A DNA stretch of 45,063 bases from NCBI GenBank assembly GCA_024684395.1, contig JAIKWY010000061.1, positions 1 through 45,063 on the forward strand. The letters are read 5' to 3'. Shown one piece after another: positions 550 to 44,719 of this stretch. The stretch is from Oscillospiraceae bacterium (GTDB lineage Bacteria; Bacillota; Clostridia; Oscillospirales; Ruminococcaceae). The notes beneath the pieces are model-generated. The model was not told the origin of the DNA and made no database searches. It saw nothing but the letters and a program-made list of their open reading frames with translations. Positions within the stretch are counted from its first letter, which is position 1, and every line of letters begins with the position of its first letter. The translations under genes were made by a program, and so were the position numbers.

Positions 550-1155
550 TTAGCGGATGACATACAGCGTGCCGGGATCCGGCGACGGCAACACGTCGTA
601 TTCCGCCTGCGTGAGGATCACGATGGGCGGGATGGCGTCGATCTCCTGCTGCATCGCTGCCAGCTCCTGATGCACCTCGCCCTCCGCACTGCCGATGTCT
701 TCGAGCGCCTGCTCTGCCGTTGCACGCACTTCGAGCAGAAATGCGGTATAGCTCCGTTCATCGAGCACATGCGAACCGTCCGGGAGCGAGCGCACCTGCA
801 CCGGCGGCAGCTGATAGCGCAGCAGATGATCCGGCGGATCTTCCTCCGGGTCTGCCTCCTCCTCATAGCGGTAGGCGAACAGGTCGAGCGCCAGAGCGCC
901 TGCCTCCTCGGTGAATTTCGGCCCCACCTCCCAGGAAAGCCGGATCACGTCCTCCCGGACATCCTTGGTGAGGGCGGCTTCCGTCTCCCCGCCGGACGGC
1001 GTGATGCCACGCATGATGAACAGGAACTCCGCAAGGTCATGCGCCCCGTAGAACCTGTCCACCTCGATGACGATCGTGTCCGCCCGTGCTTCCTCCTGCG
1101 AGAAAAGCTGCTGCACCGGCATCGTGTCGATATACTTCCCGTTGGCTTTCAGCAT
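550..1155 (-). CDS. Orphan phage-tail/baseplate-like protein
   Basis: A 201-residue acidic protein. The C-terminal motif ILTQAEYDVLPSPDPGTLYVI closely resembles the short motif that closes many phage tail-fibre and baseplate upper proteins of Firmicute siphophages. The middle has a helical, Ala/Glu-rich stretch (about residues 145-175). The start is set at the ATG at 1155 because AAAGGAG lies 8 bases before it; a TTG two codons upstream is too close to that site. No other phage gene is near: upstream is a membrane protein, downstream a pilin. It is either a prophage relic or a domesticated tail-like protein. The family assignment rests on the C-terminal motif and general composition. Confidence 0.55.
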   Translation of the reverse strand: MLKANGKYIDTMPVQQLFSQEEARADTIVIEVDRFYGAHDLAEFLFIMRGITPSGGETEAALTKDVREDVIRLSWEVGPKFTEEAGALALDLFAYRYEEEADPEEDPPDHLLRYQLPPVQVRSLPDGSHVLDERSYTAFLLEVRATAEQALEDIGSAEGEVHQELAAMQQEIDAIPPIVILTQAEYDVLPSPDPGTLYVIR

Positions 1156-1241
1156 AGTCAAAACTCCTTTCTCAGGGATATCCCCTCATCTATGCTGAAA
1201 AAGAGCGGTTTTTTGCACATTCTTATGCAAAAATGCAAAAC

Positions 1242-1272
1242 AAAAGGCTGCCCATTCGACCGGACAGCCTTT
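1242..1272 (-). terminator. Terminator hairpin
   Basis: AAAGGCTG and CAGCCTTT form the stem; read on the minus strand it is followed by TTTTGTTTTG. It lies downstream of the membrane protein gene and before the phage-tail-like gene, so it separates the two minus-strand transcripts. Confidence 0.6.
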
Positions 1273-1351
1273 ATGCTATGTGTACCATTGTCTGAAACCC
1301 CGAAGAGAGAAACAGGAGCAGCCGAATGGCTGCGATGTGAGAAGAGAAAAC

Positions 1352-1451
1352 AACGATGCCCCCTTTGGCGAAGCCATTGGGGGCATGTGATCGTTAAAAA
1401 GGTGCACCGTTCTCCTCGAAGCAGGATGGCTGTGCGGGCTCCGCACCTTAA
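1352..1451 (-). terminator. Structured 3' region of the membrane protein gene
   Basis: Two nested signals lie here. AAGGTGC (1445-1451) pairs with GCACCTT (1399-1405), and on the minus strand is followed by TTTAACG, a probable terminator. Next to it ATGCCCCC-TT-TGGC pairs with GCCA-TT-GGGGGCAT around GAA, flanked by AACGA/TCGTT. No ORF with a ribosome site was found in 1273-1447. Confidence 0.5.
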
Positions 1452-2596
1452 GAATTACCATGTTTATAATACATCGAGACAGCTTCGCTTGTCGTGAGGA
1501 TGAATACCAGCGCTCCCGTACAGCCCACAGCCAGTACCAGCAGCAGCGCATTGACAGGCATGTGTCCATCCTTCTGGATGAGCACCATAATGCCGCCGAT
1601 CAGCGCAATGAGGAAGCCTACGACATGGAAAAACCGTGTGATGCCCTGGATCTGCGGGATCGGTGCCAGCAGCGGCAGAGCGCTGATGCCCATGATCACG
1701 CCGTAGATCGGCGCATATTTGAGCACAAGAGCGAGGAAGCCGTTGTTCTGTGCCTCCTCGGTGACATTCAGTCCGAATGCACACGAGAAATAGATCGTGA
1801 ATGCCACAGCGCCGACAATGCCAACGATCGTCAGGATGATGAGCTGGATAAAGCCCTTGTGTGCGGCTTCCCGCTCACGCTCCTCACGCAGCTCGTTCAT
1901 GATGCGGACGTTTTCCTTCTTCTTTTCCTCGGTCAGCTCCATCGGAGGCGGGGTGTACTTCTGCGGCTTCTTGGATTCCTCCTTGATGCGCTTCAGATCC
2001 TCGTCCTCGAAGGAGGGCTTGTATTCCTCGGTCTGCGGGGCTTCTTCGAGCTCGACCTCCGCAGCCTCCGGGATGGCTTCCTCGATCTTCGGACGGAGCT
2101 CGTTCGGGATCATCGGAGCCGGGATACCAAGCTGCTGCGCACGCATCGCCGTGACCTGCTGCTGCTGCTCGGCATCGAGCGTCCTGAATTTTTCGAGCAG
2201 CGCATCGTCAAATTGCAGACGCTGCACAAATTCAGCCACTGGGTCATAGCTGGCAGGATCGCCGCCGCCCAAAATGTCGTCCATATTGCCTTCAAGCTGC
2301 ACATCGCCGAGCTTCTGCTCAGGCGTGTAGCTGCTTGGCGCTTCCAACTGCACCTGCTCATCGAGCGCCGGCGCACCGAGCTTCTGATCGTTCCAGGTCT
2401 GACCGGGATCGTCCAGCACGACCTGTTCCTCCAGCTCGGGAGCACCCAGCTTCTGGTCATTGCCGCCCCAGGTCTGCGGCGTGTCACCGAGCAGACCCTC
2501 CAGGTCATTCATGTCCAGCACCGGAGCGCCTCTTCTCTCGTCGTTGCCCTGCCACGTTTCCGGGGTCTCACCAAGCAAATTGTCATGATCTGGCAT
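1448..2596 (-). CDS. Four-helix membrane protein with repeated acidic N-terminal motif
   Basis: A 382-residue protein of unknown function. The N-terminal ~105 residues are acidic and hold three to four imperfect repeats of a motif like LLGDTPQTWGGNDQKLGAP (about residues 7-25, 35-53, 60-76, and a degenerate copy near 86-98). A charged region rich in Glu, Lys and Pro follows (about 130-250, partly coiled-coil-like), then four hydrophobic segments (about 255-380), so the repeats are probably cytoplasmic. The start is the ATG at 2596: AGAGG lies 8 bases upstream, and the in-frame GTG three codons earlier overlaps that site. No family is recognised. The repeated TW.GND..GAP motif may be a docking peptide. 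Confidence 0.75.
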   Translation of the reverse strand: MPDHDNLLGETPETWQGNDERRGAPVLDMNDLEGLLGDTPQTWGGNDQKLGAPELEEQVVLDDPGQTWNDQKLGAPALDEQVQLEAPSSYTPEQKLGDVQLEGNMDDILGGGDPASYDPVAEFVQRLQFDDALLEKFRTLDAEQQQQVTAMRAQQLGIPAPMIPNELRPKIEEAIPEAAEVELEEAPQTEEYKPSFEDEDLKRIKEESKKPQKYTPPPMELTEEKKKENVRIMNELREEREREAAHKGFIQLIILTIVGIVGAVAFTIYFSCAFGLNVTEEAQNNGFLALVLKYAPIYGVIMGISALPLLAPIPQIQGITRFFHVVGFLIALIGGIMVLIQKDGHMPVNALLLVLAVGCTGALVFILTTSEAVSMYYKHGNS

Positions 2597-2737
2597 GTGA
2601 TTCACCTCTTTTGAATGATGGTGTTTATCGGCGACCTTGCGGTCGCTTAGGAGGGACTACTCGCCCCTCCTAAACCTCCCTCGGCAGGAGGCTGAGCCTC
2701 CTGCACCTGCATCTTTTTTTAGGTTATTGGGGATCGG

Positions 2738-4012
2738 TTATCTCTCTATTTGCTGCTCACGGTCAGGACCTACGCCTACCATGCAGACCTTGCACTCGCA
2801 GAGCTCTTCGAGACGCTCGATGTACTTCTGGCAGGTCTCCGGCAGCTCGTCAAAGGTGCGGCAGCTGCTGATGTCATCGTCAAAGCCCGGGAATTCCTCG
2901 TAGATCGGCTGGCACTCTGCCAGCTCCTCGAGAGAGGACGGGAAGTCGTGCAGCTTGGTGCCGTCCGGCTTCACATAGCCGATGCAGATCTTCAGATCGC
3001 CGATGCCGGACAGGGTGTCCAGCTTGTTGATCGCCAGACCGTCCAGACCGTTGACTCTTACGGAATGACGTACAATGACAGCATCGAACCAGCCTGTTCT
3101 TCTCGGACGGCCGGTCGTGGTGCCGAACTCGCCGCCCTTGTTGCGGATGGTCTCGCCGGTCTCATCAAAGAGCTCGGTCGGGAACGGACCCTTGCCGACA
3201 CGGGTGGTGTAAGCCTTTGCCACGCCGATGATGTTGTCGATCATCTTCGGGCCGATGCCGGTGCCCACGCAAACACCGCCGGACAGCGGGTGAGAGCTGG
3301 TAACATACGGATAGGTACCGAAGTCGATGTCGAGCAGGGTAGCCTGCGCACCCTCAAACAGGATGGTCTTGCCAGCCTTGTAAGCCTCATAGGTCAGAAC
3401 GGAAACATCCGCTACATAGGGCTTCAGACGCTCGCCGTATGCCTTGTATTCAGCAATCACAGCGTCAAGGTCATGTGCCTCGCCGCCGTAAACTGCGGTG
3501 ATGATCTTGTTCTTGAGCGCACCGGTGGAGCGAGCCTTCTGCTCAAACAGCACCGGGTCGATCAGGTCGCAGACACGGATGCCGCAGCGCTCGTATTTGT
3601 CCATGTAAGTCGGACCGATGCCACGCTTGGTCGTGCCGATATCATTGCCGCCACGGAACTGCTCGGAAAGACCGTCGAGGGTGATATGCCACGGCATTAC
3701 CACATGCGCACGGGGGTCGATCTTGAGGTTGGCAGTGGAGATGCCTCTGCGCTCCATCTCATCGAGCTCGCCGATGAAGTCCTTCGGATCCAGCACAACG
3801 CCGGCGCCGACCAGGCACATCGTATCCGGATACAGGATACCGGAGGGTACCAGGTGCAGCTTATAGGTCTGACCGCCGCTGACAACGGTATGACCGGCAT
3901 TGTTGCCGCCCTGGGAACGGACGACCACCTGAGCACGGGAAGCCAGGATGTCAATGACCTTGCCCTTTCCCTCATCACCCCACTGGGTACCGATTACAAT
4001 ATTAGCAGGCAT
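2738..4012 (-). CDS. purA: Adenylosuccinate synthase
   Basis: Catalyses the GTP-dependent ligation of IMP and aspartate to adenylosuccinate, the first committed step to AMP, in the cytosol. The 424-residue length is standard. The N-terminus carries the diagnostic IGTQWGDEGKGKVID phosphate-binding loop with catalytic Asp13, and the NAGHTV motif with catalytic His follows (about residues 38-43). The GTTKRGIGP motif and a C-terminal TTTGRPRRTGWFD substrate loop are intact. AGAGGAAC precedes the ATG. It is monocistronic: a consensus promoter lies 66-94 bases upstream, and the leader can fold into a hairpin. Confidence 0.98.
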   Translation of the reverse strand: MPANIVIGTQWGDEGKGKVIDILASRAQVVVRSQGGNNAGHTVVSGGQTYKLHLVPSGILYPDTMCLVGAGVVLDPKDFIGELDEMERRGISTANLKIDPRAHVVMPWHITLDGLSEQFRGGNDIGTTKRGIGPTYMDKYERCGIRVCDLIDPVLFEQKARSTGALKNKIITAVYGGEAHDLDAVIAEYKAYGERLKPYVADVSVLTYEAYKAGKTILFEGAQATLLDIDFGTYPYVTSSHPLSGGVCVGTGIGPKMIDNIIGVAKAYTTRVGKGPFPTELFDETGETIRNKGGEFGTTTGRPRRTGWFDAVIVRHSVRVNGLDGLAINKLDTLSGIGDLKICIGYVKPDGTKLHDFPSSLEELAECQPIYEEFPGFDDDISSCRTFDELPETCQKYIERLEELCECKVCMVGVGPDREQQIER

Positions 4013-24214: not shown

Positions 24215-24270
24215 TTCGATCATCTCCTTTGTTCGTTTCCTGTTTCTGATGAGGGAAAGTAGTTCTTTCG

Positions 24271-24792
24271 CACGGGTTGTGCGGAGTATCTGCGGTATCG
24301 CCATGTTCTGCACGGCGGGGCGGGATCATGCACGAGTAGTGCGGAGCAACTGCGGTATCGCCATATTCTGCACGGCAGGGCGGGATCATGCACGGGCTGT
24401 GCGGAGTATTTGCAGCGTCGCCATATTCTGCACGGCGGGGCGGGATCATGCACGGGTAGTGCGGAGCAACTGCGGTATCGCCATACTTTGCACGGTAGGG
24501 CGGGATCATGCACGGGTTGTGCGGAGTATTTGCAGCGTTGCCATGTTCTGCACGGCAGGGCGGGATCATGCACGGGTTGTGCGGAGCAACTGCGGTATCG
24601 CCATACTTTGCACGGCGGGGCGGGATCATGCACGATTTGTGCGAAGCAACTGCGGTATCGCCATACTTTGCACGGCGGGGCGGGATGATGCACGGGTTGT
24701 GCGAAGTATTTGCAGCGTTGCCATATTCTGCACGGCGGGGCAGGATCATACACGGGTTGTGCGGAGCATCTGCGCCGTCGCCATACGTTGCG
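24271..24792. repeat. 60-bp tandem repeat (minisatellite), about 8.5 units
   Basis: Nine copies of a core CACGGGTTGTGCGGAG start at 24271 and then every 60 bases to 24751, with no indels. Units fall into two types by the segment after the core: AGCAACTGCGGTATC or AGTATTTGCAGCGT, alternating almost regularly. Each unit holds GCAC-GGGTT-GTGC, a small hairpin. As 60 is divisible by 3, frames on both strands stay open and give false long ORFs. No spacers are present, so it is not a CRISPR array. It lies directly upstream of the FHA-SEDS-PBP operon. Confidence 0.92.
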
Positions 24793-33359: not shown

Positions 33360-33438
33360 ACCACAGTCGGACAGTGCTTCTTACGGCGATCATTTTTAGA
33401 AAAGGCGGGTTTGAGGGGGCGCCCAGCCTCCTCCTTTT

Positions 33439-33939
33439 CCTCCCCCAACGGGGGAGGTGCCGCCGAACGGCGGCGGAGGGGGCGGCTGTCGAGAGATCTG
33501 TCCTGAAAAATGCACTTTAGCAGAGTAAATGCTTTTGCCGTGATCCATTTCCAGAGCAACAGCATTTACCCTTCTCTTCGCCAAAGGCGAAGAGTAAAAG
33601 GGGGTAGCGGGGCGCAGCCCCGCCAATTATTCCTCCCCCATTGGGGGAGGTGCCGCCGAACGGCGGCGGAGAGGGCGGCTGTCGAGAGATCTGTCCTGAA
33701 AAATGCACTTTAGCAGAGTAAATGTTTTTGCCGTGCTCCATTTCCAGAGCAACAGCATTTACCCTTCTCTTCGCCAAAGGCGAAGAGTAAAAGGGGGTAG
33801 CGGGCGCAGCCCCGCCAATAATTTCTCCCCCATTGGGGGAGGTGCCGCCGAACGGCGGCGGAGGGGGCGGCTGTCGAGAGATGTGTCCTGGAAAATGCAC
33901 TTTAGCAGAGTAAATGCTTTTGCCGTGATCCATTTCTCT
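33439..33939. repeat. 193-bp direct tandem repeat, 2.6 units
   Basis: Units start at 33439, 33632 and 33824 (periods 193 and 192); the third is truncated at about 33939. Each begins with CCTCCCCC-AACG/ATTG-GGGGGAGG, then CCGCC-GAAC-GGCGG, then a segment with GTAAATGC ... GCATTTAC inverted ends and TCTTCGCC-AAA-GGCGAAGA. Copies are near identical. The array fills the 640-base gap between the permease gene and the response regulator promoter. No coding signal. Confidence 0.92.
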
Positions 33940-38271: not shown

Positions 38272-40032
38272 TCAATAATCACGGAATCTGACAAATCGGA
38301 AGACGGATGTTTTCACGGCACTCTGTTCCGTTACATGCTCCGATGCTTCCCGCTCTGTGGTGGTGTAAACGACACGGATGGATTTGGATTTCAGCCGATT
38401 GACCATCTCAAAGCAGAGACCTGTTTCACCCATGCACATCACAACGGCAGGGCGCATCTCAGCGATCTCCTGTGCATATTTCACGGCAAGACCGGTGATG
38501 TCCGTTTCTGATGCTTCTGCACTTACCTGCGGGAAGGGCACGTCTTCGATCTTCTGCACGGATGCAAGTGCAAGAGCGGCGCTTCGCTGTTCTGCACTCC
38601 ACTTGTCAGACGGGTGATTTGAGAAATTCACAAACACCCCGGATCCGGTCTGCCCTGCAAGGAAGGCATCCAGCTTTTCCTGTGCCTGTTCGTCAGTGAG
38701 GATGTCGGCACGGCGAGCATCAATATCGCTGATCAGATCCTGTACGAGCTGAAGATCCTTGCGGAGCTTTGCCTCGTCGATGATCTGATTATCCTTGCGC
38801 ATACCGAAATGGTTCATGCAGTTACGGAATATCACGATCTCCGGAATGAAGCGCAGCTTTTCAAAATCGACATGCTGCACCAGCTTCACGATGGGCAGTA
38901 CACATTCCGGGTGCTCTCTCTGCGCAGACACTGCATTCTGCATCCCTTTTTCGACGGTCGGCTTTTCTTCTCCGTGGCTGACACATTCGTTCATTGCATA
39001 GTCGATCACGGTACGGAAATCCGGCAGAAGGAAATCCTCCCCGGGTGCATAGGTAACGCACATCAATGTCGTGATCGTTTCACGCAATGCGGTATAGCCC
39101 TGTACGATCAGACCTCGTTCCAGGTACCATTCAACGGCACAAAGCCCTTGCTGGACAGGGTCGGTACATTCCAGGAACGGATGCACGGACTGGATCGCAT
39201 GGGAGATCATGGCGTTGAAGAACACTGCCTCCGGAGCGGTCACTGTGTTCAGCTTGTTCTCATTCTGCACCAGACTGGCGGAAAGCGGCTGGATGGAACA
39301 ATTATTTGCACCGCCCTGACATGTCAGCAGTGCGGTATTGAGCTTTTTCATAAGCTTGACGACATCACGGGCACCGGAAAATGTTTGCTTTTCTCCGCCG
39401 ATCAGACGATCCATGCGGGCATTTACCACTTCCTTGATCTCGGATGCATTGCCGGAGCGAATAAACAGATGTGCTGCATTGGCGCAGTCAAGGATCTCAT
39501 CATAGACAAGCAGATCAACGACCGGTGCTTCTGCTGCACCGTTCGTGTACAAGCCATAATAGATGTGATCTATGGAGATGTGCTTCAGCTCCTTGGCATA
39601 CCGCATCACAGGGAAAAACAGCAGGGGCAGCAGCCGGTAGCCGTGGGTCGTTTCAAATGTGATGGAATCGCCCTCACCGATGTTATCGTAGATGATCTTG
39701 AAAAGCTTTGTCAGGTCGCTCTCGTTTGAACATTCAGGGATCCAGACCGGCTCGAACTTGCCGGGGAAATGGGATTCCAGGTAGGGCTGCAATCCCTCCA
39801 CGGGCGTTATGGTATTTGTCTGTTTGTTTCTGTGCGATGCCTTCTCCCAGTTGTTTGCACGAGCTGTGTCTGTGAGAAAGAAGATCATGCGGTCAAATTG
39901 CTTTCCTTGCGCAGAAAGCATATTCAGGATCGCTTTGGAAACAAAATGATTGCGGTCGGACTGTCCGTCCAGCGTATACGTTACCGGGTCATATCCTCCG
40001 GATCCGATAAATGTCAAAAAAACTCGTGCCAT
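38272..40032 (-). CDS. CARF-HEPN protein, Csx2/DxTHG family, with extra C-terminal domain
   Basis: A 586-residue protein. The N-terminal ~200 residues match the TIGR02221 (Csx2) CARF pattern: LTFIGSGGYDPVTY at the start, FETTHGYRLLP (127-137) in place of DxTHG, then IYYGLY. CARF domains bind cyclic oligoadenylate or related nucleotides. A helical middle follows with the HEPN RNase motif R403-NCMN-H408. Residues 465-586 form an added alpha/beta domain (VFVNFSNHPSDKW, DVPFPQV, MCMGETG, TTTERE) resembling small CRISPR-linked Rossmann-like proteins; a ring-nuclease or second sensor role is a guess. It has its own consensus promoter and no cas10 neighbour. Confidence 0.8.
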   Translation of the reverse strand: MARVFLTFIGSGGYDPVTYTLDGQSDRNHFVSKAILNMLSAQGKQFDRMIFFLTDTARANNWEKASHRNKQTNTITPVEGLQPYLESHFPGKFEPVWIPECSNESDLTKLFKIIYDNIGEGDSITFETTHGYRLLPLLFFPVMRYAKELKHISIDHIYYGLYTNGAAEAPVVDLLVYDEILDCANAAHLFIRSGNASEIKEVVNARMDRLIGGEKQTFSGARDVVKLMKKLNTALLTCQGGANNCSIQPLSASLVQNENKLNTVTAPEAVFFNAMISHAIQSVHPFLECTDPVQQGLCAVEWYLERGLIVQGYTALRETITTLMCVTYAPGEDFLLPDFRTVIDYAMNECVSHGEEKPTVEKGMQNAVSAQREHPECVLPIVKLVQHVDFEKLRFIPEIVIFRNCMNHFGMRKDNQIIDEAKLRKDLQLVQDLISDIDARRADILTDEQAQEKLDAFLAGQTGSGVFVNFSNHPSDKWSAEQRSAALALASVQKIEDVPFPQVSAEASETDITGLAVKYAQEIAEMRPAVVMCMGETGLCFEMVNRLKSKSIRVVYTTTEREASEHVTEQSAVKTSVFRFVRFRDY

Positions 40033-40098
40033 GGCTGCTCCTTTCTGTTTTGGGAAATTTGGTCAAGGGGGTAGATCCGAGGTCAGGACTATGGTGTT

Positions 40099-40127
40099 AT
40101 TATACCATTTTGCTTTCTTCTTGTCAA
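40099..40127 (-). promoter_or_regulatory. Consensus promoter of the CARF-HEPN gene
   Basis: Minus strand TTGACA (40127-40122), 17 bases, TATAAT (40104-40099). It lies just past the terminator of the peptide array, so this gene is expressed independently and probably constitutively. Confidence 0.88.
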
Positions 40128-40150
40128 GCAATTTTGACATATATAAAAAT

Positions 40151-40192
40151 CCCGGCGCATCAGATCTTGCAGAGCAAAATCATTACGCCGGG
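40151..40192 (-). terminator. Terminator of the small-peptide array
   Basis: CCCGGCG and CGCCGGG pair across a 28-base loop; on the minus strand the stem is followed by ATTTTTATAT. It ends the peptide transcript before the CARF-HEPN promoter. Confidence 0.75.
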
Positions 40193-40218
40193 AAGCGGGT
40201 GGGATCGTTATGTTCCTT

Positions 40219-40248
40219 TCACAGGAACAGCAGGACTGCAATTACCAT
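40219..40248 (-). CDS. Tiny peptide 9 (9 aa)
   Basis: Encodes MVIAVLLFL, fully hydrophobic. GAAAGGAGG lies 7 bases before the ATG (AAAGGAGGTATCC context). It is the last unit before the terminator. With only nine codons it could be a leader peptide rather than a product. Confidence 0.4.
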   Translation of the reverse strand: MVIAVLLFL

Positions 40249-40282
40249 ATGGATACCTCCTTTCAAGGGAATTTAATGCGTT

Positions 40283-40363
40283 TCAGTAAATGATCGGGAA
40301 GGGGAACTTCCGCTTTTTTTCGGGGAACAGGACCGGGGTCGGCATAATAATATGTTCCATCAT
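40283..40363 (-). CDS. Tiny peptide 8 (26 aa)
   Basis: Encodes a 26-residue peptide starting MMEHIIMPTPVLF with a basic Pro/Phe-rich end (PEKKRKFPFPIIY). GAAAGGAGGTG lies upstream of the ATG. Not helical like the others; Pro-rich cationic. Cotranscribed with its neighbours. Confidence 0.5.
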   Translation of the reverse strand: MMEHIIMPTPVLFPEKKRKFPFPIIY

Positions 40364-40400
40364 AACTAACACCTCCTTTCAATTGATGTGGGATCTGGGA

Positions 40401-40460
40401 TCATTCGAGGATGATCTTGATGAGTTCCTTGGCGATTTCGTGACCGATCGTCTTCATCAT
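40401..40460 (-). CDS. Tiny peptide 7 (19 aa)
   Basis: Encodes MMKTIGHEIAKELIKIILE, a short amphipathic helix. GAAAGGAGGTG lies upstream. It is a clear paralogue of peptide 6: same length and same placement of Gly, Glu and the IKII segment. Confidence 0.6.
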   Translation of the reverse strand: MMKTIGHEIAKELIKIILE

Positions 40461-40498
40461 AGCTAACACCTCCTTTCAAATGGTGCGTGGTTTCGGGA

Positions 40499-40558
40499 TC
40501 ATTCAAAGATGATCTTGATAATGAGCTTGCCGAGTTCTTCACCGATCGGTGTCATCAT
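40499..40558 (-). CDS. Tiny peptide 6 (19 aa)
   Basis: Encodes MMTPIGEELGKLIIKIIFE. GAAAGGAGGCG lies upstream, preceded by CTATTACATTGTG as in units 1-4 but without the TTAAAA box. Paralogue of peptide 7. Confidence 0.6.
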   Translation of the reverse strand: MMTPIGEELGKLIIKIIFE

Positions 40559-40605
40559 AACTGTCGCCTCCTTTCACAATGTAATAGGGTCGGTTCTTTT
40601 CGTGG

Positions 40606-40635
40606 TCATTTGAAGATCGGGATCGTTTTGAACAT
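40606..40635 (-). CDS. Tiny peptide 5 (9 aa)
   Basis: Encodes MFKTIPIFK. GAAAGGAGGTGAGCAT lies directly before the ATG, as strong as for the longer peptides. At nine codons it may be a remnant of a longer unit or a translational leader. Confidence 0.4.
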   Translation of the reverse strand: MFKTIPIFK

Positions 40636-40675
40636 AATGCTCACCTCCTTTCAGATCAGTCCGGATCTGTGTTTC

Positions 40676-40765
40676 TTACTTTCCGCTTTCTTTGATGATC
40701 TTGATGATGCCAACTGCTGCTGTGATGACTGCAGATGCGATACCGAGCATTTCCTTTGCGCCCAT
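40676..40765 (-). CDS. Tiny peptide 4 (29 aa), PSM-like
   Basis: A 29-residue amphipathic helix: MGAKEMLGIASAVIT then AAVGIIKIIKESGK, net charge about +2. The GIIKIIK segment resembles staphylococcal alpha-type phenol-soluble modulins (AGIIKVIK). It shares length and the positions Lys4, Gly8, Lys22, Lys25, Glu26 and Lys29 with peptide 2, so they are paralogues. AAAGGAGGTGAGCAT precedes the ATG; a TTAAAA-N15-TATTAC element lies upstream. No signal peptide. Confidence 0.68.
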   Translation of the reverse strand: MGAKEMLGIASAVITAAVGIIKIIKESGK

Positions 40766-40817
40766 ATGCTCACCTCCTTTCACAAGGTAATAGAATCAGT
40801 TTAAGTTTTTTAAGGGG

Positions 40818-40898
40818 TCATTCCATCTTTTCTTTTACGCTTTCGATCGCTGCCTTTGCGGCTTCCAGCAGGGTGATAACGATACCCAGTGCTTCCAT
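40818..40898 (-). CDS. Tiny peptide 3 (26 aa)
   Basis: A 26-residue helix-prone peptide, MEALGIVITLLEAAKAAIE then SVKEKME, net negative (about -2), unlike its cationic neighbours. AAAGGAGGTGAGCAC precedes the ATG, and TTAAAA-N15-TATTAC lies upstream. A mix of anionic and cationic helices is seen in multi-component peptide toxins and would allow pairing. Confidence 0.65.
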   Translation of the reverse strand: MEALGIVITLLEAAKAAIESVKEKME

Positions 40899-40950
40899 GT
40901 GCTCACCTCCTTTCATAAGGTAATAGAAGCGGTTCGGTTTTTTTAAGGGA

Positions 40951-41040
40951 TCATTTTGCGATTTCTTTGATCAGCTTGATCGTAGCCGTAGCTACGCTCA
41001 CACCAGCGGCAACGATGCCGAGGATCGCTTTGATTTCCAT
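40951..41040 (-). CDS. Tiny peptide 2 (29 aa)
   Basis: A 29-residue hydrophobic helix with a charged end: MEIKAILGIVAAGVSVATA then TIKLIKEIAK, net about +2. Paralogue of peptide 4. AAAGGAGATGAGCAC precedes the ATG; TTAAAA-N15-TATTAC lies upstream. Long enough to span or insert in a membrane. Confidence 0.68.
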   Translation of the reverse strand: MEIKAILGIVAAGVSVATATIKLIKEIAK

Positions 41041-41109
41041 GTGCTCATCTCCTTTCATAAGGTAATAGAAGCGGGACGATATTTTTAAGTGAAATGCAGA
41101 AACTTTTTT

Positions 41110-41193
41110 TCAAAGGGGTATCGGCGGGAGTTTGGCAGCCTCTGCAAGGGCTTTCAGAACGGCTTTGAGGATCTTCTTTGCGGTTGTTTTCAT
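41110..41193 (-). CDS. Tiny peptide 1 (27 aa), cationic
   Basis: First unit of the array: MKTTAKKILKAVLKALAEA then AKLPPIPL, six Lys and one Glu (net about +5), an amphipathic Lys/Leu/Ala helix like cationic antimicrobial peptides, with a Pro-rich end. AAAGGAAGTGATC is a weaker ribosome site than in later units. TTAAAA-N15-TATTAT lies upstream, just after the terminator of the sigma-like gene. Confidence 0.65.
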   Translation of the reverse strand: MKTTAKKILKAVLKALAEAAKLPPIPL

Positions 41194-41252
41194 ATGATCA
41201 CTTCCTTTCATAAGATAATAGGATCGGGTTTTGTTTTTTAAGGAAAAAAGAA

Positions 41253-41287
41253 AGCCGCACTGCAAAAATCAGTAATGCAGTGCGGCT
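41253..41287 (-). terminator. Terminator of the CARF/sigma-like operon
   Basis: AGCCGCACTGCA and TGCAGTGCGGCT pair perfectly; on the minus strand TTCTTTTTTCC follows. It separates the upstream operon from the peptide array. Confidence 0.88.
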
Positions 41288-41338
41288 CTGGCGATACAGA
41301 AGTTTTAGAAAAAGAGATATTTAGCGGCAGTCTCGGAC

Positions 41339-42325
41339 TTATACGTTCTCCTCCTCATTTTGGGGCAAGATCCACGAATGGCTGTGCTTATCAATGCCAA
41401 GTGAGGTGTGAAACGCCGTTCTCTGCAAGGATAATGCAGCGTCCGACACTTTTTTCTGATATTGCTTGGACAGATAATCCTTATAGACGATCGCTTCCAA
41501 CGGCAGCCCGATCGTCCCGGTTTTTTTCGTGATGCCAAGCTGTGCATAGCTCTTCAGCGGGGTCTTTTTGATCTTGTAAAGTGTCCTGCATTCTTTTGTC
41601 ATCAGATAGTCGAGGAAAATGCAGTCCATTGCTGAAAAAGCATCCTGCTCGTTGATGGAAATGATGTCAAACACCTTTTCCTTGGCAAAGCAGATCATGT
41701 AATCCGTGGTAAAGCAGCGATAATAACGCAGCCTTTCGGTGTAATCATAGTTACCGGTATGGTGCTCATAAAACAGGGTCACATTCGCCAGAAGTGAAGC
41801 GACCTTAGCTTTGGCTTCGGCATCCTTCTCCTTTGCCCCTTCGCAGATCGCTTGCGGTCCGGGGGCCGGATCCGGGATGCTGACGGACTTGGGATCGTCC
41901 AGAGTGAGCGGTTGTTCCACGGGTTCCCGCTTTTCCGAACCGTCCGCCTGCCTTCCGACAACACGGGTGTTCTTTTTATAGATCTTATCGAGAACATACC
42001 AGCGCACGCTGAGCATGAAATAGGGGAAAAACTCCGGGTTGCGCTCCGGAGAATAGTTTTCCAGAGCATTCAGAAAGCATTCGTGAAACACATCCTGTCC
42101 GTCCTGGGCAGCGCTGGTGTTTTGGTTGATCTCGATCATCAGATCCAGCTTATAATGCAGTGCTCTGCTGCATGGATTGTCTGCCTCACGGGACAGAAGG
42201 GCATACACCTTGTTTGTGATATTTTTCATCTCACGAGGGGAGCCGTGATGCTTTTTCAGCTCCATATAGCGCGCCATCAGACTGTTGAGCTGATCCTGGA
42301 TCTGCCTCTTTTCCGTCTGTTCCAT
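41339..42325 (-). CDS. Sigma-70-like protein in the CARF locus
   Basis: A 328-residue protein. Residues about 78-118 (DVFHECFLNALENYSPERNPE then FFPYFMLSVRWYVLDKIYKKN) look like sigma region 2: the acidic first helix, the aromatic core and the basic end after a W-x-V-x-D helix. A variable Pro-rich linker (about 120-165) and a helical second half follow; TPLKSYAQLGITKKTGTIG near residue 260 could be a region 4 helix-turn-helix. Assignment is by pattern only. It is the third gene of the operon, 10 bases after the small CARF-like gene, and lies directly before the peptide array. Sigma factors released by CARF-controlled proteolysis are known (CalpL-CalpT-CalpS). Confidence 0.5.
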   Translation of the reverse strand: MEQTEKRQIQDQLNSLMARYMELKKHHGSPREMKNITNKVYALLSREADNPCSRALHYKLDLMIEINQNTSAAQDGQDVFHECFLNALENYSPERNPEFFPYFMLSVRWYVLDKIYKKNTRVVGRQADGSEKREPVEQPLTLDDPKSVSIPDPAPGPQAICEGAKEKDAEAKAKVASLLANVTLFYEHHTGNYDYTERLRYYRCFTTDYMICFAKEKVFDIISINEQDAFSAMDCIFLDYLMTKECRTLYKIKKTPLKSYAQLGITKKTGTIGLPLEAIVYKDYLSKQYQKKVSDAALSLQRTAFHTSLGIDKHSHSWILPQNEEENV

Positions 42326-42335
42326 CCATCATCCC

Positions 42336-42941
42336 TCATTTCAACAGAGCCTTGATCTTTTCCGTCGGATCACTGATCTTCTGGTCTGCCATGATGCGAA
42401 CGATCTCATCCATGAACAAAAGCGAGGTGATATCGTAGATATGCATTATTCCGGTATTGAAATCCTTTGCGCCGTATACGATACAGCCAACGCTTGTATT
42501 CTGCCGGATGCGATGTCCGTAATTCAATGCCATGGAAAGGATCATCGGGGCGGGTTTGAAGCCGTAGGTGATGCAGGCATACAGTGTATCCTCATCTGCC
42601 ACGCATTCGATCAGCTTGCCGAACAGATCCAGCTGCGTGTCCAGATCGCTGCTGTACGGCGTTTCTACCTTGCGGATCTCATAAGCGACCTCCAGCTTTG
42701 CACAGAGTGCCTCCAATTCCTTGGAAAACAGACCAAAATTGTGGATGGCATTCTCATACGCACTGACGATCACAACGACCTCGATCTTTTCGCCCTTTTC
42801 CGCATAGGCGTTGATCACCGGGATGATCGGAAATGCCGTCTGTTCATCGTATTGGAGCCTGGGGTTGTCGGCGGCATTGTAAATACCTTTTTCCAGTTTC
42901 CCCTCCGGCTGGAAGGGGCTTGTCATAATGAATTTTTTCAT
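42336..42941 (-). CDS. Small CARF-like protein
   Basis: A 201-residue Rossmann-like protein: strand VVVIVSAYEN (about 55-64), then ITYGFKPAPMILSMALNYG (124-142), which takes the place of the DxTHG segment in TM1812/Csx1-type CARF domains, and VGCIVYGAKDF followed by IYDITSLLFMDEIV, like the YDLT segment of that family. There is no HEPN part, so it may be a sensor, a modulator of the other CARF proteins, or a ring-nuclease-like enzyme. The start overlaps the upstream CARF-HEPN stop (ATGA). AAGGAGG lies 7 bases before the ATG. Confidence 0.6.
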   Translation of the reverse strand: MKKFIMTSPFQPEGKLEKGIYNAADNPRLQYDEQTAFPIIPVINAYAEKGEKIEVVVIVSAYENAIHNFGLFSKELEALCAKLEVAYEIRKVETPYSSDLDTQLDLFGKLIECVADEDTLYACITYGFKPAPMILSMALNYGHRIRQNTSVGCIVYGAKDFNTGIMHIYDITSLLFMDEIVRIMADQKISDPTEKIKALLK

Positions 42942-44608
42942 GGTTTTGCCTCCTTACAATGCTGTACGGCACTGCGCATCACAGACACAATGTCCTGCAG
43001 CGCCGGCGTTTCCTGTGTCGGATATCCAAGTGCATTAAAATAGGCGATCTCTTCTTTGCTCCTTCCATTTGTATCACTGGCGTGATTGAAGGAATTGCGC
43101 AGAAAATTCTTGATAAACAAATAGTCCCGCATGATCGTCTGCATTTTGGAATGATCGGTGTGCAGCGTGAAGTGCTTCTGCCCTTTCAGTGCGCTTTCCA
43201 GATATTCGATCGTGTTGATGAACGAGCTCTGATAGCGGTGAGCCGTAATGGCGACACCTCCCTGCAAAACAGTATGCAGCTTCTGATTGGTAATGATGTT
43301 TTTGAGGAATCCCACAGGCTTTCTGGCAGTGCATTTGTCAGGGATATCCTGCAGATCCGGATGAGCTGCGATCGCTTTTTGGATGTCCTCCGGTGTGCGG
43401 CGGACCGAATCAGACCCAAAGACCGCATGGACCAGAAGCAGTGTACGGTCAAGCCCGAATGTTCCAAGATCTCCAAGCACGGAACGATACTGCGGCGCTA
43501 TCCACAAAAATGCTTCGGCATCCGGGGATGCGGCGAGCTGTTCGAGCAGCTCTTTATGATCTTTGATCTGGAGCAGAAATTTGGTGAGCGGCTGCTGATC
43601 GGGCTCAGCGTGGATGCGCATGTTCATGAATTTTTCAAAGAACAGCCGGTAATACGGGTCAAAGTGATTCGGCCTGGAAAGAATGCTCTGGACCACTTCT
43701 TCGTCCGCAGTCAGGTAGCCGTTCTGGAAAAAGAAGGAACCGATCTTCTCGGTGTAGATGGTGACAGCCTGCTGGATGAGCTGATGCTCCAGGCACCATT
43801 CGATCACGGAGGGATACTCTGCCTTTGTGCTGCCTTTTTCGATGCCGAATTTCTGACGGATCATGCCGGAGATGCTCCGCAAGAGGATCTCGTTCTGGTC
43901 ATCCGTCTGCATGGCATCCAGTCCCTGCAAGCTGTCATTCAGTGCGAAGAGCACCTCGTCCAGCCGTGAGGTGCGGCAGAGTGCAACAGCTTCCGAAAAG
44001 TCATTCATTGCCAGAAGGACATGCTGCACCTCCGGATGTCCGTGCTCCTGAAAGAAAGCGGACAGCTCCCGGGAATTGCCAAATTCTGTGAAGCTGTTTG
44101 CCGCACTGATGAGATCAAATAACCGGTAAGTGGCGGTCACATCCTCGATCTGCTTGCAATGCTCCTCAAAACGGGAATAGACGGCTTTTTCAAGCCGGAT
44201 CCCTGAGTATTCGAGGATCCGGACGACCGCCATCAGAAGATAGCTCGAATTGCGGAAGCCGCCTGTCGTATCAATGTACACATGGGCATCTGACGGGATG
44301 AGTTCAACGATATGATGGATGGTCGCAGCCATCTGTGCAACGTCCACCTGCCTGAGCTCCGGCACATCGCTGCTGTGCTCCCGTCTGACGGCTTCCGACA
44401 GGGCAACGAAAGCATCCTTTGCCTCCGGTGTTGTGACTGCAATGATGCGTACCGGTACCCCGGGAGACTGCTTTTCCAGGAACCGCAGCAGATAGGTGAC
44501 AGGTGCATCATTGGTATGGGTGCCGATGATCTCACCAAGATCGGAACCATAGTGGCAGGGGGTAGCATTGGAGTGCAGTCTGCTCAGGTTAGTGATGATG
44601 ACGTTCAA
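42938..44608 (-). CDS. CARF-HEPN protein, TM1812/Csx family
   Basis: A 556-residue protein. The N-terminal CARF domain (about 1-175) begins MNVIITNLSRLHSN and carries YIDTTGGFRNSS (111-122), followed by VYSRFE and the IEDVT segment. The rest is helical and ends with the HEPN RNase motif R504-NSFN-H509 within FLRNSFNHAS. By analogy with Csm6/Csx1 it should cut RNA when the CARF site binds a nucleotide signal. The start is TTG at 44608, with GGAGG 7 bases upstream; the frame runs upstream through the promoter. It is first in an operon with the small CARF-like and sigma-like genes. Confidence 0.8.
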   Translation of the reverse strand: MNVIITNLSRLHSNATPCHYGSDLGEIIGTHTNDAPVTYLLRFLEKQSPGVPVRIIAVTTPEAKDAFVALSEAVRREHSSDVPELRQVDVAQMAATIHHIVELIPSDAHVYIDTTGGFRNSSYLLMAVVRILEYSGIRLEKAVYSRFEEHCKQIEDVTATYRLFDLISAANSFTEFGNSRELSAFFQEHGHPEVQHVLLAMNDFSEAVALCRTSRLDEVLFALNDSLQGLDAMQTDDQNEILLRSISGMIRQKFGIEKGSTKAEYPSVIEWCLEHQLIQQAVTIYTEKIGSFFFQNGYLTADEEVVQSILSRPNHFDPYYRLFFEKFMNMRIHAEPDQQPLTKFLLQIKDHKELLEQLAASPDAEAFLWIAPQYRSVLGDLGTFGLDRTLLLVHAVFGSDSVRRTPEDIQKAIAAHPDLQDIPDKCTARKPVGFLKNIITNQKLHTVLQGGVAITAHRYQSSFINTIEYLESALKGQKHFTLHTDHSKMQTIMRDYLFIKNFLRNSFNHASDTNGRSKEEIAYFNALGYPTQETPALQDIVSVMRSAVQHCKEAKP

Positions 44609-44615
44609 AGGATCA

Positions 44616-44643
44616 CCTCCGTGTTTGCAGAAGCGCACGGAGG
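44616..44643 (-). promoter_or_regulatory. Hairpin hiding the ribosome site of the CARF-HEPN gene
   Basis: On the minus strand CCTCCGTG (44643-44636) can pair perfectly with CACGGAGG (44623-44616) across a 12-base loop; the second arm contains the Shine-Dalgarno GGAGG. Together with the TTG start this should keep translation low unless the stem is opened. Confidence 0.55.
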
Positions 44644-44690
44644 GCAGCTTCTGACAAAGATTTCTCCCCCGCATAGGGGTTCGCAAGTAA

Positions 44691-44719
44691 AGTATATCAT
44701 ATTTCAACAAACAAGTCAA
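44691..44719 (-). promoter_or_regulatory. Promoter of the CARF/sigma-like operon
   Basis: Minus strand TTGACT (44719-44714), 17 bases, TATACT (44696-44691). The leader is about 80 bases and includes CCCC-TATGC-GGGG and the ribosome-site hairpin. Confidence 0.75.

Follow-up and report, generated by a model that had tools for sequence, protein, structure and literature searches.

The window analysed here is a whole contig (C61, 45,063 bp) of an Oscillospiraceae bacterium whose genome assembly comprises 225 contigs. One block of its minus strand holds, in this order, a CARF-HEPN gene, a CARF-only gene, a sigma-like gene, nine very short open reading frames (ORFs; 41193 down to 40219) and a gene for a CARF-HEPN protein with a C-terminal Csx20 domain. 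With slightly better than even confidence, we interpret the block as a protease-free CARF/sigma output arm of a type III-D clustered regularly interspaced short palindromic repeats (CRISPR) system, which would transcribe short peptides. The block is most likely the signalling-output part of a III-D system, separated from its Cas10 operon in this genome, and it likely uses the Cas10 on contig C118 in trans. The interpretation is carried by the gene content, the pairing of the CARF-only and sigma-like genes, the III-D linkage in relatives, the kinship of the sigma-like protein to sigma-70 region 2, and the recurrence of the peptide genes and their upstream element in three species. The original prediction had named two CARF-HEPN proteins, a small CARF-like protein, a sigma-70-like protein and a peptide array in one minus-strand block. 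The ORFs and PADLOC agree with this composition, and ORF reading placed all four long genes of Table 1 on the minus strand.

The CARF-only and sigma-like genes were paired in every locus read. The original prediction had proposed a survey of gene neighbourhoods for co-occurrence, and the CARF-only gene was found directly upstream of the sigma-like gene in ten of ten loci: the window, L005 (apparently the same contig as L013), L010, L011, L012, L014, L015, L079, L094 and L095. L081, L097, L112 and L113 were outside the gene reading, and L080 was taken as ORF positions only. Of the nine further loci, the sigma protein or its profile retrieved four and the CARF profile five; the pairing is therefore visible from both sides. 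Identity to the window protein is 35-63% for the CARF-only proteins and 20-37% for the sigma-like proteins. By PADLOC, cas10d lies on the same contig in 6 of the 10 loci (L010, L011, L015, L094 and L095, plus the C-terminal part in L014), and L079 carries a III-D Cas7 and Csx19. Cas6 is present in L012. No cas gene was recognised by eye in the 12 kb read of L005, a contig that begins 128 bases before the first gene.

Wider searches were performed with both proteins. The CARF search of the genus matched 5 of 38 genomes: that of the window, G1415, G1436, the one with the L096 contig, and G1427 with a 583-amino-acid frame. The CARF profiles had no match in viral contigs. The sigma protein gave 27 pattern matches in genome contigs, none of them a relative, and none in plasmids. 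The sigma profile matched in 75 of 391 genomes of the class and 105 of 398 of the phylum, the own genome counted. The in-frame matches that were read mostly look like ordinary sigma factors, 15 of them SigI; many translations in a wrong frame were set aside, and G1414 alone among the new matches was read as a CARF partner.

The peptide array was compared with shuffled DNA. Its nine ORFs encode peptides of 9-29 amino acids. Within 1.1 kb, 11 ATG starts (8 distinct stops) are preceded by a Shine-Dalgarno sequence and open an ORF of 6-60 amino acids; double starts were counted twice, and w1, with its weaker ribosome site, fell outside the strict pattern. In 1000 shuffles of the same 1.1 kb, the mean was 0.15 and the maximum 3, which indicates that the array noticed in the original prediction is real. 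A terminator-like hairpin stands between the sigma gene and the array. A corresponding order was found in G1436, a genome of the same genus: CARF-HEPN-Csx20, CARF, sigma, a terminator-like hairpin (-22.1), a five-repeat CRISPR array and five short peptides (g1 to g5), with the cas10 operon divergent to this gene row. Peptide g1 resembles w4 with a z of 5.9 against shuffled sequence (ungapped 29-column alignment) and w2 with a z of 4.2; g2 resembles w7 (z 3.6). Altogether, 4 of the 45 window/G1436 peptide pairs are above z 3. In L012, a more distant locus whose CARF protein is 56% identical, the stretch from cas6 to a gene start that by eye resembles cas2 holds two ORFs, one of 8 and one of 11 amino acids. 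Peptide genes are present in 3 of the 10 CARF/sigma loci, namely the window, G1436 and L012. Among the 14 peptides of the window and G1436, the helical moment had a shuffle p from 0.007 to 0.104 for eight (w1-w4, w6, w7, g1 and g2); it was above that of shuffles, with p at most 0.04, for w1, w2, w4 and w6. Seven peptides were scanned against Pfam; six had no match, and g1 had one at chance level (0.24). The DNA of the array had no match in plasmids. Strict and relaxed scans for other clusters of short ORFs gave some clusters of three to four ORFs on coding DNA or CRISPR repeats, which were read as noise; the L012 pair was retained because of its upstream elements.

These elements follow one consensus over the three species, CTTAAA-N15/16-C(T/G)AT, ahead of the short-peptide genes. 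Peptides w1-w4 each lie behind CTTAAA, 15 bases, CTATTA and then a ribosome site. For four of the six pairs among w1-w4, the comparison gave 71-89% identity in the upstream 45 nucleotides and 40-60% in the coding parts. The region upstream of g1 fits 17 of the 21 columns that are invariant in w1-w4, a value that none of 20,000 shuffles reached. With at most two mismatches, the full pattern was found in 2 of the 38 genus genomes (four sites in the window and one in G1436), and the reversed control gave 18 hits. This pattern was composed after both species had been inspected, and the independent test is therefore the count of 17 of 21 columns. In L012, CTTAAA-N16-CTATG and a ribosome site stand ahead of each of the two ORFs; two elements occur there in 0.4 kb, and none of 5,000 shuffles holds two. 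A widened pattern gave 8 matches in 249 kb of loci, 7 of them ahead of peptide genes, with 1.25 expected from shuffles. The remaining match, in L010 at 191, is within this chance expectation. Between 40200 and 41300, a consensus scan of the minus strand gave no sigma-A-like promoter.

The element was also searched for more widely. In the wider family, 1 of 396 genomes matched, which is the own genome (G1436 is outside that list), and the exact element was found in no viral contig. A genome-wide regulon was considered and rejected: a shorter pattern occurred exactly at four sites, none of them outside the array, and with one mismatch at two sites elsewhere, vs 8 control hits. Folding of the element RNA gave z from -0.83 to 1.34 in four sequences, with no stability beyond shuffles. 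An Rfam match to rli40, far below the gathering score and on the other strand, was taken as chance.

The sigma-like family contains sigma-70 region 2, as supported by the family profile, the Pfam hits of two other members and the fold; the sigma-70-like protein of the original prediction is confirmed in this respect. The window protein alone had no family-level match in Pfam, and in NCBIfam only FliA/WhiG at 0.058. Aligned by hhalign, the family profile scored 94.9% to SigI, 68.5% to a second sigma set and 0.2% to a CARF control. The SigI set consists of 15 proteins picked by eye from the in-frame matches, all of which match SigI models. Between the two sigma sets, SigI of Clostridia and Bacilli matched the profile better. 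SigI works with an RsgI-type partner. Here the partner is a CARF protein; no search for an RsgI-type partner was made. In the structural model, C-terminal helices at 278-289 and 295-309 could be a candidate region 4, which binds the -35 element.

The III-D operon of the same genome lies on contig C118 and comprises Cas10d, Cas5/Cas7-IIId, Csx19 and Cas6 with short CRISPR arrays. The genome holds Cas10d, the Cas5 and Cas7 of III-D and Csx19, the components that define membership of this type. PADLOC identified Cas10d (8.9e-85), Cas5_IIId (1.9e-80) and Cas7_IIId (3.4e-90 and 1.8e-105). NCBIfam placed Csx19 (TIGR03984) over the cut-off together with a III RAMP and named no Cas10. A Cas10/Cmr2 palm model had one gene over the cut-off in the genome, on C118, and also matched the E. 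coli control. The Cas10 assignment rests on PADLOC and context because NCBIfam names none and the palm model matches E. coli. A TIGR02578 search for Cas10 gave a sole match that reads by eye as RNase Y on C91, and it was rejected. A simple H..D search of the first 150 residues found no HD-type motif in any of six Cas10d proteins. Arrays of few degenerate repeats flank the cas operon (L006, G000:C118, 893-1273 and 8827-9226), with a 266-bp duplicated stretch, and single repeats of this kind, accompanied by a leader-like stretch that looks similar by eye, occur on contigs C72 and C212 (L110 5709-5740 and L111 7684-7715). C61 and C118 are alike in guanine plus cytosine content (0.559 and 0.578). 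The statement of the original prediction that there is no cas10 or CRISPR array holds for the 45-kb contig and fails for the genome, where its proposed search for cas10 found Cas10d on C118, as well as the arrays.

Both CARF-HEPN proteins combine a CARF domain with a HEPN domain bearing an RX4-6H motif, as Csx1/Csm6 CARF-HEPN proteins do, and they are predicted to be cyclic-oligoadenylate-activated RNases. The first has the HEPN RX4H motif RNSFNH and the CARF motif DTTGGFR. RNSFNH is residues 541-546 of the ORF from 44719 and 503-508 with a TTG start at 44605, which is the likely translation start as judged by eye from the sequence, where MNVIITNLS resembles MSEIILTNLS of L005. Relatives of this protein occur in L005, L010, L011, L014, L079 and L094. 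The second has RNCMNH at 403-408 and the CARF motif ETTHGYR, and its Csx20 domain (PADLOC PDLC01397, 3.4e-28) covers residues 467-586. Of the two HEPN motifs given in the original prediction, R403..H408 was correct and R504..H509 was one residue off. The block shares with the known Csx1/Csm6 RNases and Csx20 the CARF-HEPN architecture, the RX4H motif and the Csx20 domain. Csx20 is a cyclic tetra-adenylate (cA4) ring nuclease (PMC12409355). Here it is fused to the RNase, an architecture already in the PADLOC models (PDLC01843). Two variants were seen in other contigs. The 3.8-kb L096 contig, found in the genus CARF search, encodes a 936-amino-acid CARF-HEPN-CARF-like protein (915-3725), apparently a CARF-HEPN protein joined to a CARF-only domain and a natural fusion of two module neighbours. 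In L095 (11900-12148), what remains of the larger CARF-HEPN gene lacks the middle part and adjoins the cas10 operon of G1436.

Several observations weigh against a III-D output arm that transcribes peptides. The block is not within a cas operon in its own genome, the block being on C61 and the operon on C118, and the linkage is seen in relatives only. The assembly is in 225 pieces with an estimated contamination of 4.26%, its cas10 is on another contig, and the physical linkage of C61 and C118 in this one assembly is only putative. The C118 Cas10d (L006 7140-8672) has the cyclase motif SDGDE, vs GGDE in four relatives and AGDD in one, and its cyclase may therefore be altered. The first sigma model was poor, with a predicted local distance difference test (pLDDT) of 58; Foldseek with the sigma model gave nothing better than E 0.17; one family member has a stray Pfam match to Tctex-1 (0.0045); and region 4 and the binding of the RNA polymerase core are only putative. 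Six of the 14 window and G1436 peptides (w5, w8, w9 and g3-g5) are not amphipathic, and those of L012 are not long enough for a judgement. The widened pattern was composed after L012 had been inspected, where the spacing has one extra base. In the same genus, G1415 combines CARF, sigma and III-D but lacks the element, and the peptides are therefore not a universal target. The element could instead be translational, as its folds pair part of the ribosome site. Finally, in 7 of the 10 CARF/sigma loci the DNA that was read is free of a peptide array; contig ends cut some of these loci short.

These seven loci speak for a rival reading, in which the CARF/sigma pair would be a III-D transcription arm that acts not on the peptides but on cas genes, CRISPR arrays or genes elsewhere, and the peptides would be an independent neighbouring cluster, bacteriocin-like (leaderless) or modulin-like. 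In type III-E, CASP-sigma has binding motifs at cas1 and other genes (PMC10028731). We consider other targets rather unlikely, as three species have peptide genes beside CARF/sigma with a similar upstream element, and this element is absent from the other 36 genus genomes. It is improbable that the sigma-like protein is no longer a sigma factor and that its degenerate sigma fold now serves as a subunit of the III-D complex or as an adaptor for the CARF partner. In compact operons its gene does have CARF on one side and cas10 or cas6 on the other, its evolution is fast (19-54% pairwise identity vs 35-88% for CARF, without the G1415 sigma row), and region 4 is putative. A stand-alone CARF/HEPN/sigma module with a messenger from a non-CRISPR source, also offered in the original prediction, is very unlikely: no cas gene was recognised in the block and nothing in the window comes within 8 mismatches of the C118/G1436 repeat, but the own genome has Cas10d, Cas6 and arrays, and the CARF/sigma genes of relatives lie in or beside such an operon, with cas10d on the same contig in six of the ten loci.

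Herein, the III-D output arm is proposed to work in five steps. The III-D complex would meet foreign RNA, and Cas10d, judged by its family, would make cyclic oligoadenylate. The two CARF-HEPN RNases would then cut RNA, and the fused Csx20 would degrade the messenger and limit the response. The CARF-only protein would bind the messenger and control its sigma-70-family partner, as a releasing anti-sigma or a co-activator, a role suggested by the strict pairing. Sigma would direct RNA polymerase to CTTAAA-N15/16-C(T/G)AT before the peptide genes, as suggested by the conservation and position of the element and the absence of sigma-A-like promoters there. Most speculatively, the short, partly amphipathic peptides may attack the infected cell at its membrane or at another target, with arrest or death as the outcome. 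The original prediction had joined RNA cleavage to the transcription of small peptides, which stays the leading model because the CARF families sense messengers, a sigma-70 relative is present and peptide genes recur in two further species. We infer its messenger, sigma and peptide steps, that is, messenger binding, CARF control of sigma, promoter recognition and peptide toxicity. The fuller proposal, that an alarm molecule gates sigma through a CARF partner without a protease and that the output is a transcribed array of membrane-active peptides, an RNA-guided peptide suicide, is tentative and rather doubtful.

The general idea is plausible because protease-gated sigma systems, CalpS and CASP-sigma, have been published. 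In CalpL-CalpT-CalpS (CRISPR Lon protease, anti-sigma and ECF sigma), a type III messenger leads to sigma release and a transcriptional response (PMC11229360, PMC11014256), as proposed here. There, a SAVED-Lon protease cleaves the anti-sigma, whereas here the neighbour of sigma is a CARF-only protein. No protease gene was recognised in the block, and neither Lon nor SAVED was found among its four long genes that were scanned; no search for CalpL was made elsewhere in the genome. CASP (III-E Cas7-11, Csx29, Csx30 and CASP-sigma) is likewise a CRISPR locus with a dedicated sigma factor that an inhibitor keeps in check (PMC10028731). It uses a single Cas7-11 and the Csx29 protease, in contrast to the multi-gene III-D operon with Cas10d. 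A single Cas7-11 effector is absent from the C118 operon, which has separate RAMP genes and gRAMP matches below the cut-off; Csx29 was not searched for. RtcR-type CARF regulators were an earlier predicted link between CARF sensing and sigma, in a sigma-54-dependent form (PMC4012209). They have an NtrC-like AAA+ domain and sigma-54, whereas a separate CARF-only protein stands beside a sigma-70-family gene here. In the open-access literature (PMC), among the matches listed, there was no CARF/sigma-70 pair in III-D and no CRISPR-linked peptide array.

Tandem genes for short hydrophobic or amphipathic peptides are also known from phenol-soluble modulins, leaderless multi-peptide bacteriocins and Ibs/Ldr-type small toxins. 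The present array shares these features and differs in its linkage to CRISPR genes; no search for exporters was made.

Feature coordinates are collected in Table 1. The sigma-A consensus scan as a whole was near chance (9 found vs 8.0 expected). The terminator-like hairpin is missing from the terminator scan because the scan has a loop limit of 8 and the loop here is 11. Other genes were noted near the relatives. In L010 (5405-7174), a 589-amino-acid leucine-rich-repeat-like protein lies between CARF-HEPN and CARF in the III-D operon, and upstream genes resemble a mobile element (by eye). A family of 114-121 amino acids with LW(I/V/F)SRHxMT adjoins CRISPR genes in four III-D loci. PADLOC gave nothing for three members and weak matches for the fourth, and NCBIfam, tried with one, gave weak matches only. 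It is perhaps an unrecognised messenger-handling protein. A relationship of the 120-amino-acid WISRHQMT proteins to Csx20 was unsupported (hhalign 0.1%). The window also has tandem repeats at 24270-24786 (60-bp unit, 8.6 copies) and 33437-33936 (193-bp unit, 2.6 copies).

Table 1 Features of the minus-strand block in the window, with a gene family adjoining CRISPR genes in four relatives.
Feature	Position	Strand	Basis or remark
sigma-A-type promoter TTGACT-17-TATACT	44691..44719	-	consensus scan, 10/12 matches; ahead of CARF-HEPN/CARF/sigma operon
CARF-HEPN (Csx1/Csm6-like)	42938..44719	-	PADLOC PDLC01830 (CARF_HEPN) 2.3e-49; motifs
CARF-only protein, 201 amino acids	42336..42941	-	PADLOC PDLC01821 2.1e-74
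sigma-70-family protein, 328 amino acids	41339..42325	-	region-2 domain, residues about 2-122
terminator-like hairpin, then CTTTTTT	41244..41289	-	3' of sigma gene; -25.2 kcal/mol
repeated upstream element 1	41204..41242	-	
peptide w1, 27 amino acids	41110..41193	-	
repeated upstream element 2	41051..41089	-	
peptide w2, 29 amino acids	40951..41040	-	
repeated upstream element 3	40909..40947	-	
peptide w3, 26 amino acids	40818..40898	-	
repeated upstream element 4	40776..40814	-	
peptide w4, 29 amino acids	40676..40765	-	closest to G1436 peptide g1
peptide w5, 9 amino acids	40606..40635	-	
peptide w6, 19 amino acids	40499..40558	-	partial upstream element: 12/21 columns, p 0.004
peptide w7, 19 amino acids	40401..40460	-	resembles G1436 peptide g2
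peptide w8, 26 amino acids	40283..40363	-	
peptide w9, 9 amino acids	40219..40248	-	
sigma-A-type promoter TTGACA-17-TATAAT	40099..40127	-	consensus scan, 12/12; ahead of CARF-HEPN-Csx20 gene
CARF-HEPN with C-terminal Csx20 (ring-nuclease family) domain	38272..40032	-	PADLOC CARF_HEPN_CSX20 PDLC01843 8.7e-90
LW(I/V/F)SRHxMT family member	L012 4244-4606		
LW(I/V/F)SRHxMT family member	L014 11629-11991		
LW(I/V/F)SRHxMT family member	L079 9603-9968		
LW(I/V/F)SRHxMT family member	L094 5002-5346		

The system proposed here would be a variant of CRISPR-gated transcription, and the kind of effector is possibly new. Among the matches listed in the open-access literature, the known CRISPR-gated sigma factors belong to two protease-based systems. 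If the interpretation is true, the III-D pair of CARF and sigma would add a third route, one of simpler design, and it brings with it concrete candidate targets in the genes next to sigma. Arrays of short peptides would then represent a new class of CRISPR effector.

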